Shown piece by piece: positions 14,301 to 18,464 of a stretch of DNA of 64,000 nucleotides. The position numbers were made by a program, and so were the translations under genes. The notes beneath the pieces were generated by a model, which was not told where the DNA came from, did no database searches, and saw nothing but the letters and a program-made list of their open reading frames with translations. Each line of letters opens with the position of its first letter. Position 1 is the stretch's first letter. Source of the DNA: Sphingomonas horti (GTDB taxonomy: Bacteria; Pseudomonadota; Alphaproteobacteria; Sphingomonadales; Sphingomonadaceae); NCBI RefSeq assembly GCF_009753715.1, contig NZ_WQMS01000016.1, forward strand, positions 310,001-374,000, read 5' to 3'.

Positions 14301-14767
14301 CACAACATTCCCAATTCCAGTTTCGCCTCGTCCGACATCTGCGCCGGGTTCCAGGGCGGGTCCCAGACCAGGCTGACCTCGACATCGCCGATCCCTGGCA
14401 CCGCGCCGACGCGCAGCTCGACTTCGCCCGGCATCGATTCCGCGACCGGGCAGTGCGGCGTGGTCAGCGTCATCGTGATCGCGGTGTGCCCGTCGGGCGA
14501 GATGTCGACGCCATAGATCAGCCCCAGATCGTAGATGTTCACCGGAATCTCGGGGTCGTAGATTTCCTTCAGCGACTGGATCACCGCTTCGTACAGCTCG
14601 CCGCCCGGCTCATGCCCCGACAGCTCGGCCGGCTTCTCGCTGAGGAACCCGGCGAGATAGTCCCTCTTGCGCTCAAACCCGTCGCGCGCCGCATCCTCGA
14701 CCCGCGCCTTGGGCGGCGGGGAAACCGCGTCCACTTCCTCGACTCTGATCCGGCTCTGCTCGTTCAT
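14300..14767 (-). CDS. SufT-like MIP18/DUF59 family Fe-S assembly protein
   Basis: A 155-residue protein with a variable, charged N-terminus and the DUF59 domain in the second half (LKEIYDPEIPVNIYDLGLIY, then TTPHCPVAESMPGEV with its conserved Cys). SufT proteins assist Fe-S cluster maturation, mainly under high Fe-S demand. It is bracketed by sufS, overlapped by 4 bases (ATGA), and the A-type carrier gene. The function is assigned from family and operon context. Confidence 0.9.
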   Translation of the reverse strand: MNEQSRIRVEEVDAVSPPPKARVEDAARDGFERKRDYLAGFLSEKPAELSGHEPGGELYEAVIQSLKEIYDPEIPVNIYDLGLIYGVDISPDGHTAITMTLTTPHCPVAESMPGEVELRVGAVPGIGDVEVSLVWDPPWNPAQMSDEAKLELGML

Positions 14768-16038
14768 CCGAAAATCCTCGTCACGCGCTCGATCCCGCGC
14801 GCGAGCGCGTCCACGTCGGCGGCGCTGTTATAGACCCCGAAGCTCGCCCGCGCGGTGGCGGGGACGCCCAGCGCGTCCATCAGCGGCTGCGCGCAATGAT
14901 GCCCAGCGCGGATCGCGACGCGTTCCTCGTCCAATATGGTGCCGACGTCGTGCGGATGCACCCCCTCGATCGCGAAGCTGACGATGCCGGCGCTGTCGTC
15001 CGGCCCGAACAGCCGCACGGAGTTGATCGCCCCCAGCCGCTCGCGCGTCATCCGCACCAAAGCCGATTCGTGCGCGTGGATGGCGTCCAGCCCGATCGCC
15101 TCGACATAGTCGATCGCCGCATGCAGCCCCAGGGCGCCGACGATATGCGGCGTCCCCGCCTCGAACCGCGCCGGCGCGGGCATATAGGTCGTCCGCTCGA
15201 ACGTGGCGCGATCGATCATCGCGCCGCCGCCCTGCCACGGCGGCATCGCATCGAGGATCTCGCCCCGTGCCCAGAGCACGCCGAACCCGGTCGGCCCGTA
15301 GAGCTTGTGCGCAGAAAACACGTAGAAGTCGCAGCCGATCTCGGCCACATCGACCGCCATCCGCGGCACCGCCTGGCAGCCATCGAGCAGCAATTTCGCC
15401 CCGACCCGATGCGCCATCGCCGCCGCCCGCTTCGCGTCCAGCACCGATCCGAGCACGTTCGACACATGCGCCAGCGCCACGAGCTTGTGCCGCTCGGTCA
15501 GCATCGCCTCGGCCGCGTCCAGGTCGATCCGCCCGTCGCCGGTCAACGGCGCCACGTCGATCTCGATGCCGGTGCGGTCCCGCAGCAGCTGCCACGGCAC
15601 GATGTTCGAATGATGCTCCAGGGTTGAAAGCAGGATGCGGTCGCCTGCCTTCAGCTGCGACCCGCCCCAGCTCTCGGCGACCAGGTTGATCCCTTCGGTC
15701 GCCCCGCGCACGAACACGATCTCGTCCGCAGACGCAGCCCCGATGAACCGCGCCACTCGCTTGCGCGCCGCTTCATAGGCCAGCGTCATGTCGGCGGAGC
15801 GCTGGTACACGCCGCGGTGCACCGTCGCGTAAGTGGTGTCGTAGGCGCGCGCGATCGCGTCGATCACCGCCTGCGGTTTCTGCGCGGTCGCGGCCGTGTC
15901 GAGATACGCCCAGCCGCCGGGAATCGCGGGGAAGTCGGCGAGCAAGTCTAAGGCTTCAGCCCCTCTCCCGTTTCGGGAGAGGGAGGGGCCCATTGCGTCA
16001 GCAATGGGAGGGTGAGGGTCTGTGAGCGGATGATCCAT
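14764..16038 (-). CDS. sufS: Cysteine desulfurase SufS with repeat-derived N-terminus
   Basis: SufS removes sulfur from cysteine, using PLP, for Fe-S cluster assembly. The PLP Lys is about residue 245 (SAHKLYGPTG) and the persulfide-forming Cys about 382 (RAGHHCAQPL). The native fold begins at about residue 30 (LLADFPAIPGGWAYLD); the residues before it (MDHPLTDPHPPIADAMGPSL and on) come from a palindromic repeat that spans the sufD-sufS junction. The usable ATG at 16038 is itself inside the repeat, 5 bases after the sufD stop. Whether the extra segment is translated in full needs protein evidence. Confidence 0.93.
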   Translation of the reverse strand: MDHPLTDPHPPIADAMGPSLSRNGRGAEALDLLADFPAIPGGWAYLDTAATAQKPQAVIDAIARAYDTTYATVHRGVYQRSADMTLAYEAARKRVARFIGAASADEIVFVRGATEGINLVAESWGGSQLKAGDRILLSTLEHHSNIVPWQLLRDRTGIEIDVAPLTGDGRIDLDAAEAMLTERHKLVALAHVSNVLGSVLDAKRAAAMAHRVGAKLLLDGCQAVPRMAVDVAEIGCDFYVFSAHKLYGPTGFGVLWARGEILDAMPPWQGGGAMIDRATFERTTYMPAPARFEAGTPHIVGALGLHAAIDYVEAIGLDAIHAHESALVRMTRERLGAINSVRLFGPDDSAGIVSFAIEGVHPHDVGTILDEERVAIRAGHHCAQPLMDALGVPATARASFGVYNSAADVDALARGIERVTRIFG

Positions 16039-16102
16039 TGCCCTCACCCTCCCAAGCCTTCGGCTTGGGCCCCTCCCTCTCCCCGCTGGGGAGAGGGGCT
16101 CG
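15958..16102. repeat. Palindromic repeat across the sufD-sufS junction
   Basis: The element has outer arms CCCCTCTCCCGTTTCGGGAG and CTCCCCGCTGGGGAGAGGGG, and inner arms CCCATTGC.GCAATGGG and CCAAGCCTTCGGCTTGG. It contains the last 18 or so codons and stop of sufD, the 5-base spacer, and the first codons of sufS, so two operon genes have their ends rewritten by one insertion. Confidence 0.85.
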
Positions 16103-17168
16103 AAAGCCACGCATCCGCCTCGGCCGCAAACCCCTCCCGCACTTCGTCCACCCCGATCCGCTCCAGCGCATCCGCCACGAACGCCCGCGTCAGCAGCGCC
16201 CGCGCTTCGGCCGGCGGCACGCCGCGGCTCGCAAGATAGAACAACGCCCGCGCATCCAGCTCGCCGACGGTCGCCCCGTGCGCGCATTTCACGTCGTCGG
16301 CGAAGATCTCCAGCTCCGGCTTCAAATTCACCGTTGCCGCGCGCCTCAGCAGCAGGCCGCGCAGCGATTGCTCGGCATCCGTCTTCTGCGCCACGCGCGC
16401 GACTTCCACCCGCGCCGCAAGGCTCGCGACGGCCGTGTCGTCGGCGACCGCGCGCCAGGTCTGGCGGCTCATGCAGCCCTCGGCCTCGTGCCGCAGCACG
16501 ACCGCCGCTTCGTGCCTTTGCTCGCCCCGCGTCAGCAGCGCACCGCCCATTTCCGCGAATGCCGCATCGCCGGTCAGCCGCAGATGCCCGTCGATCCGGC
16601 TCCCCGCGCCGCCTTCGGCCAGCACGGTCGTGACCAGGCTCGCCCCGGTCGCGATCTCCGCCTCGTCGCGCAGGGACTGAAAGCCACTCGTCTGCGCCAG
16701 CCGCACCGCCCGCATCAGCCGCGCTGACCGCCCGAGCCGGATGGCCGTCAGCCGGTTCGCCCAGCCATCGCCGACGAAGGTCTCGACGATCGCGGCCTGC
16801 GCGTCGTCCTCCAGCGCGATCAGCCCTGGCACATGGCTGGCGCCGCCGGTCCCGACATGCACGATCTCGACCAACCCCGGCGCCGAATGGTCCCGCCCGA
16901 GCCGCAGCGCCCAGCCGGCGCCGGTCGCCAGCCTGCCCAGCGGATGCTCCGACCGCACGTCGACCGCACCCACTTCAAGCGGTCCGACCTTGCTCCGCGC
17001 CGCATCGAGCCGCCCGTCGACAAACACCAGCCGAGGCCCATCCCCCAGCGCCGCAGGCACTTCCACGCCCGCCCCGCTCGGCCCCTGATCGGCAAGCGCC
17101 GGCAGCACGGTCAAATCCGCCCACCGCCACGCCTCTTCACGGCTGGAAGGAAGGGAAAGGGCAGTCAC
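16044..17168 (-). CDS. sufD: Fe-S cluster assembly protein SufD with repeat-derived C-terminus
   Basis: SufD partners SufB and the ATPase SufC in the SufBC2D scaffold. The 374-residue protein shows the SufD/SufB beta-helix core and the conserved end region (DVKCAHGATVGELDARALFY, SRGVPPAEARALLTRAFV). After ...AADAWLS the chain continues with SPSPQRGEGGAQAEGLGG, which is encoded by a palindromic repeat and is not part of the family. The start is GTG at 17168 with GAGGGAG upstream, at the edge of a perfect inverted repeat. Confidence 0.92.
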   Translation of the reverse strand: MTALSLPSSREEAWRWADLTVLPALADQGPSGAGVEVPAALGDGPRLVFVDGRLDAARSKVGPLEVGAVDVRSEHPLGRLATGAGWALRLGRDHSAPGLVEIVHVGTGGASHVPGLIALEDDAQAAIVETFVGDGWANRLTAIRLGRSARLMRAVRLAQTSGFQSLRDEAEIATGASLVTTVLAEGGAGSRIDGHLRLTGDAAFAEMGGALLTRGEQRHEAAVVLRHEAEGCMSRQTWRAVADDTAVASLAARVEVARVAQKTDAEQSLRGLLLRRAATVNLKPELEIFADDVKCAHGATVGELDARALFYLASRGVPPAEARALLTRAFVADALERIGVDEVREGFAAEADAWLSSPSPQRGEGGAQAEGLGG

Positions 17169-17179
17169 GCCAGCGCTCC

Positions 17180-17245
17180 CTCTGCGCCTCTGCGCCTCTG
17201 CGCGAACTGCAATTTAGGTTCGCGCAGAGGCGCAGAGGCGCAGAG
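17180..17245. repeat. Perfect 28-bp inverted repeat between sufC and sufD
   Basis: The arms 17180-17207 and 17218-17245 are exact reverse complements, built from the unit CTCTGCGC, with a 10-base loop TGCAATTTAG. It lies between the sufC stop and the sufD start. A 28-bp stem in the polycistronic RNA could halt exonucleases, attenuate readthrough or regulate sufD translation, because its edge abuts the sufD ribosome binding site. Confidence 0.95.
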
Positions 17246-17268: not shown

Positions 17269-18110
<842 letters not shown>

Positions 18111-18111
<1 letters not shown>

Positions 18112-18460
18112 TACAGGCCGTTCCGTTCCTTGAAATCCCGATTGTATTGCTCAAGTGAAACCCGAAGAATCCTGTCATACGACGATGTCGGGCAGCTTTG
18201 CTTGTACTCATCAGACAACGCCCGAAGTGGGTCTGATGCAATGTCCGCCACTCCTGCTTTCACCATGAACGGTCTGGGTCCGGTGTATCCGCCTAAGCGA
18301 TTCTTCGAATTCACCAAGCCACAGGTGACATCGCCCTTCGAGCCAACAGCATCGAACTGGGCCGATGAGGGATCTACGAGAGCGTCTTTCACAGCTGCCT
18401 TGGCAGACTGAGCTTGGCAGCCAGAGACAAAAGGCAAGGCAAGCAACAAGGCCAGCGATC

Positions 18461-18464
<4 letters not shown>
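18111..18464 (-). CDS. Putative lipoprotein inserted in the suf operon
   Basis: A 117-residue protein with a signal peptide and lipobox ([11 protein letters not shown]), then [18 protein letters not shown], resembling small proteobacterial lipoproteins and secreted proteins with a DPxSAQF motif, and two further Cys ([17 protein letters not shown]). No role in Fe-S assembly is known to me. It is coupled on both sides: its GTG overlaps the sufB stop by 4 bases and its stop overlaps the sufC ATG by 1. Its base composition is clearly lower in GC than its neighbours, with unusual codons for this genome, suggesting transfer into the operon. Confidence 0.75.

Follow-up and report, generated by a model that had tools for sequence, protein, structure and literature searches.

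Palindromic repeats at the sufD-sufS junction of Sphingomonas horti and its relatives: a probable source of gene ends

INTRODUCTION

Rickettsia provides the best-known cases of selfish palindromes that lie within protein genes. Sphingomonads carry palindromes in the iron-sulfur cluster assembly operon at two repeatable sites. Each occurrence is a natural replicate, and with many of them one can ask where proteins and operons tolerate insertion and whether a working junction between two genes can come from a mobile repeat. Where repeats can supply gene ends, as they can in such genomes, start-site annotation is affected. A preliminary description of the sufD-sufS locus of Sphingomonas horti had proposed that a palindromic element lying across the junction between the two genes provides the last residues and the stop codon of SufD together with the first 30 or so residues of SufS, and that both coding ends evolved by capturing repeat sequence. 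Here, we analysed this junction in the host genome and in its relatives. All coordinates refer to the window, the 64,000-nucleotide stretch of contig NZ_WQMS01000016.1 that was analysed.

RESULTS AND DISCUSSION

An inverted pair of repeat units spans the sufD-sufS junction

The suf genes are on the minus strand of the window in the order sufB, a small ORF, sufC, sufD, sufS, a SUF_assoc gene and a sufA-like gene (Table 1). The small ORF between sufB and sufC (18111-18464) has a lipoprotein-like start and no Pfam match. The palindromic element is present where the preliminary description had located it, except that it ends at 16100 and not at 16102. It is 143 nt long, with outer arms of 35 nt (15958-15992 and 16066-16100; 86% complementary) and inner arms of 14 nt (16005-16018 and 16041-16054; 100% complementary). 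Each of its two units, hereafter family A, is ordered as AGCCCCTCTCCC, a short loop, GGGAGAGGGAGGGGCCC, a variable stem-loop and the tail GGGAGGGTGAGGG, and the two tails point inward on either side of the loop between the units. The coding-strand RNA of the element folds at -120.6 kcal/mol, compared with -71.2 +/- 4.4 for shuffled controls that preserve base composition only (z = -11.2; 0/200 as good). An Rfam search of the window gave no RNA family at the element above gathering score, the only matches being two tRNAs, and a terminator and promoter scan of the sufD-sufS junction found neither.

Table 1. Features of the suf region, in window coordinates
Feature	Position	Strand	Description
sufS	14764..16038	-	424 aa; TIGR01979 above cut-off; first 27 residues element-derived
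Family A palindromic element	15958..16100	.	Inverted pair of two ~62-nt units across the sufD-sufS junction
Unit 1	15958..16018	+	Hairpin CCCCTCTCCC/GGGAGAGGG; variable stem ATTGC/GCAAT; tail GGGAGGGTGAGGG at 16006-16018
Loop between units	16019..16040	-	22 nt; contains the sufS ATG
Probable sufS start ATG	16036..16038	-	5 nt past the sufD stop
Shine-Dalgarno-like GGGAGGGTGAGGG before sufS	16041..16053	-	Duplex with assumed anti-SD CACCUCCUU, -10.7 kcal/mol
Unit 2	16041..16100	-	Layout as unit 1; variable stem AAGCC/GGCTT; tail GGGAGGGTGAGGG at 16041-16053
sufD stop TGA	16044..16046	-	Within GGGTGAGGG of unit 2
sufD	16044..17168	-	374 aa; SUFBD_core; best NCBIfam match TIGR01981, under its cut-off; last 18 residues element-derived
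Third palindrome, unlike families A and B	17180..17245	.	GTTCGCGCAGAGGCGCAGAGGCGCAGAG; perfect 28-nt arms, 10-nt loop; non-coding, between sufC and sufD
sufC	17269-18111	-	Carries an in-frame palindrome insert
Family B palindrome (CCCCTCCCGCTTGCGGGAGGGG type)	17818..17925	-	In frame in sufC after residue 62; +36 residues

Family A is dispersed in the host genome

Allowing one mismatch at most, a search of the host genome (3.35 Mb) returned 15 copies of the unit core GGGAGAGGGAGGGGCCC and none of its reversed control, indicating that this is a repeat and not a chance palindrome. A covariance model found 26 units in the host genome and matches in 33 of 101 genomes of the bacterial family, with a patchy spread. 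The units measure about 61-72 nt and contain two hairpins each; the 17 that were aligned start with (A/T/G)GCCCC or near and end with GGGTGAGGG and 3-4 variable bases. Pairs of units occur in the host in both arrangements. The second stem is paired in 15 of the 16 units parsed, yet 12 different stem strings were counted (one unpaired unit included), suggesting that pairing rather than sequence is conserved there. These figures come from a per-unit check, used instead of RNAalifold on a MAFFT alignment, which missed the second stem since variable stems do not align.

This dispersal suggests that family A is mobile. The RAYT transposase (Y1_Tnp, PF01797) gave no match in the host genome, in a search that detected its positive controls, and was present in 15 of the 61 genomes searched. 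By eye, no direct repeat was seen in the flanks of the junction copy.

Other family A copies are also found in coding sequences of the host. Two are in frame in the interdomain linkers of E2 acyltransferases of 2-oxoacid dehydrogenases (L015:631-1952 and L002:1623-3016), and another supplies the C-terminus of a DUF815 ATPase gene (L010). Such locations fit an element that inserts in many places and survives at the tolerant ones. At a further site (L001:1887-1954), the tail GGGAGGGTGAGGG stands just before an ATG (GGGCCTATGGCC) as a possible repeat-supplied ribosome site.

The element encodes the end of SufD and, probably, the start of SufS

The SufD frame enters the element at 16100, after ...AEADAWLS, and continues with SPSPQRGEGGAQAEGLGG, that is 18 residues, up to the TGA; unit 2 thus codes the C-terminus and the stop of SufD, as had been proposed. 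From the ATG, the SufS frame reads MDHPLTDPHPPIADAMGPSLSRNGRGA up to the end of the element and then EALDLLADFP, so that 27 residues, close to the earlier estimate, are element-coded and end two codons before the conserved LDLLADFP. Unit 1, read on the minus strand, accounts for SufS residues ~8-27. Judged from the sequence, both tails are probably translated in the host. Disorder is predicted for that of SufS, where pLDDT stays under 50 across the first 27 modelled residues.

The ATG at 16036-16038 is probably the start in use. An alternative in-frame GTG (16045-16047) would overlap the sufD stop by 4 nt (GTGA), and the only other in-frame ATG has no Shine-Dalgarno (SD) sequence (+0.7 kcal/mol). 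The SD-like sequence and the start are located within a perfect 14-bp stem or between its two arms, and the local folding energy (-40.8) ranks close to the 5th percentile among relatives. Initiation may therefore be poor unless the terminating ribosome opens this stem. Translation of sufS is probably coupled to that of sufD.

The N-terminal tail could instead be an annotation artefact, the element being effectively extragenic, a spacer hairpin past which SufS starts. Passages of PMC3733652 warn that N-terminal residues encoded by REPs may mostly reflect wrongly annotated starts. In the host, however, just two starts are available from unit 1 onward, the SD-less ATG and a TTG (computed SD energy, -7.7) 4 residues before the F of the SufS ADFP motif. 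A tail-less SufS beginning at this TTG is conceivable here, but it would begin later than the SufS of nearly all relatives (5th percentile, 8.4 residues before F). Moreover, the SufD tail and stop are in the element whatever the SufS start.

The junction before insertion

The state of the junction before insertion was deduced from 151 species of the same family, each represented by one genome, host included. The SufD tail is nearly constant across them: the residues past conserved residue 330 have a median of 29 (5-95%: 26-34), compared with 44 in the host. From SufD residue 330 to the SufS F, the median is 131 nt, compared with 245 nt in the host. The host junction is longer by a net 114 nt (some 15 residues added to SufD and 20 to SufS). 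This gain is smaller than the element, indicating that roughly 29 nt of the old junction were lost and that the old ends were replaced and not merely extended. In the palindrome-free junctions (n = 129), the distance from SufD stop to sufS start was -4 nt from the 5th to the 75th percentiles, with sufS typically starting about 15 residues ahead of F; these overlap figures are estimates, as the relatives' sufS start was chosen by SD energy. As a control, insertions in the SufD core were 12-14-residue indels only, none repeat-like by eye. A genome of the same genus (G005; rated 100% complete) had no close SufS match, its best hit showing 33% identity. The comparison across the 151 genomes supports the proposal that the two coding ends captured repeat sequence, and a search for similar tails among the palindrome-free relatives compared found none.

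We consider it probable that a non-autonomous multicopy palindrome, REP- or MITE-like, inserted at the sufD-sufS junction and replaced it, its tail serving as a ready-made junction. The palindrome would have entered a tightly coupled junction, typically with the 4-nt overlap of palindrome-free relatives. Its tail GGGAGGGTGAGGG would offer the SufD stop (TGA) in one frame, a Shine-Dalgarno-like sequence and then a start, either the GTG overlapping the stop or the ATG 5 nt further on, and the remainder of the element, open in the SufS frame, would become an unstructured N-terminal tail. We propose that the insertion survived because this tail restores stop, SD and start.

Different palindrome families were captured at the same junction in relatives

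A long inverted repeat was found at 19 of 146 sufD-sufS junctions, compared with 0 of 146 when shuffled with base composition alone preserved. With 18 more genomes from genus g77, the count rose to 26 of 164; as g77 was sampled for its family A match, this second figure is biased as a frequency and the first is nearer to unbiased. At 5 of the 19 junctions, the SufD stop is inside or after the element. The stretch from palindrome to SufS core has no start codon at 13 of the 19, and for several of these there is none inside the palindrome either; SufS there must contain repeat-derived residues, if made at all. L237, L182 and L273 have no start inside or past the palindrome, which would have to be read through. 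By contrast, a good sufS start follows the palindrome in L099, L126, L129 and L179, as expected if the element were extragenic. Taken together with the host's own poor choice of later starts, the 13 junctions make the extragenic reading improbable for the host, and we retain the ready-made junction as the better account.

The junction palindromes belong to at least five sequence families by pattern-based labels: A, B (CTCCCGCnnGCGGGAG), C (GAGCGAAGTCGAG), D (TTCGACAAGCTCAG) and others, e.g. CCCCTCCCCTTCAGGGGAGGGG. When the junction was treated as a multistate character, parsimony on a FastTree tree (SufD and part of SufS) called for 25 or more changes of state. The 'one repeat' of the preliminary description holds for the host junction, but it is one of many, with other palindrome families captured in other lineages. 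Two genus-mates of the host, L126 and L129, carry families C and D at the junction and its other nearest relatives carry none.

Family A is at the junction in three genomes of genus g77, G157 (L180, the same place as L307), G430 (L301) and G434 (L303). All three have an ATG/SD layout like that of the host, with an SD energy of -10.7 kcal/mol each; the host SufD frame is common to L180 and L303, and L301 uses another frame. We hold with moderate confidence that the host and g77 insertions were separate captures. Shared inheritance of family A with g77 was considered as the main story and is not favoured, the nearest relatives of the host having other elements or none. The G157 half-element is identical to that of the host outside three wildcard positions, the sole such pair among 401 genomes, and for these two insertions common descent could still apply.

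The recurrence at one junction, the very stable fold, and a hairpin enclosing both SD and start, the sufD stop being on the 5' side, could also mean that the palindrome is kept for regulation, the mRNA fold setting the SufS:SufD ratio by attenuation, RNase III processing or strict translational coupling. In E. coli, a REP that lies no further than 15 nt from a stop reduces translation of the upstream gene (PMC12306157). This explanation is compatible with the insertion of a ready-made junction, but we regard it as unlikely: 138 of the 164 scored genomes have no palindrome, the elements vary in sequence, size and position, some being wholly within the SufS frame, and the junction has no terminator-like site.

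SufC carries inserts at a single site

The second repeatable site is in sufC. Among 133 genomes with a near-complete SufC, 9, including the host, have in-frame inserts of 27-37 residues, all at one residue, after VTxGSVxF. E. coli SufC aligns in two blocks with the break exactly at this site. The inserts derive from family B (host), D, C, CCGGCGAAAGCCGGGG and the CGTCATTGCGAGG type, and the eight other genomes mostly do not share the host's family. Six of the 9 genomes also have a sufD-sufS palindrome (Fisher p = 1.5e-4, kinship uncorrected). Elsewhere in the window, a family B palindrome is in frame in ileS (isoleucine-tRNA ligase, TIGR00392; 29778-29873), with a peptide like PLPPSRLREGPGEGTSGSAAFEAGPPLTPPASGRG.

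Adoption of the SufS tail or the SufC insert for a protein function would be one way to account for the four genomes with similar family A SufS tails (HPP(I/F)A...LS..GRG). However, the DNA that these tails share accounts for their similarity; the sequences of tails from other families are unrelated, and both the SufS tail and the SufC insert are predicted to be disordered, which leaves such a function very improbable. Most likely, the insertions would be passengers retained where they are least harmful, and the tails appear to be neutral ones. Tentatively, we suggest that the sufD-sufS overlap and one SufC loop are recurrent landing or tolerance sites for unrelated families, and that the family A tail may act as a portable stop-SD-start cassette that rebuilds coupling.

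Comparison with known repeat systems

In the open-access literature, we found nothing on sphingomonad suf operons or on the family A unit, and we found no description of a single element that rebuilt a coupled junction on both sides, or of repeated capture by different families at fixed suf sites. The main-text passages of PMC3733652 give no suf gene as a REP site.

MITEs such as RUP, Correia/NEMIS and ERIC resemble the host element in their ~100-200 bp, their inverted-repeat ends and some in-frame gene fusions (PMC2229807), but no target-site duplication or parent transposase was recognised for it. With REPs (GTAG and CGTC) and BIMEs, it has in common short hairpin units, multiple copies and inverted pairs near gene ends. 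Unlike REPs, its unit has no GTAG or CGTC tag at either end, is a ~62-nt double hairpin and not a 20-40 bp single palindrome, and occurs in a genome in which no RAYT was found. According to passages of PMC3733652, GTAG REPs often supply the stop codon of the flanking gene, intragenic REPs occur in tRNA synthetases and TruB of E. lithoralis and S. alaskensis (species as named there), and the CGTC-1 class is said to include RPE-6. By eye, the L179 sufC insert (CGTCATTGCGAGG...) resembles a CGTC-1 dimer.

The nearest precedents of the junction element are stop-supplying REPs and the Rickettsia palindromic elements (RPEs; Ogata et al. 2000, 2002). As reviewed in PMC10969869 and PMC2229807, RPEs are of ~100-150 bp, with several families per genome, and add peptides to conserved proteins by lying in frame in their genes. 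The palindromes of the host, also an alphaproteobacterium, are likewise in frame in conserved genes, at the sufD and sufS ends, in the E2 linkers and in the DUF815 gene. In contrast to RPEs, to which it is likened by description and not by sequence, the junction element spans two genes and supplies a stop, an SD-like site and a start. By analogy, it would work like RPEs and like the stop-supplying REPs, a likeness in behaviour that we do not extend to membership in either group.
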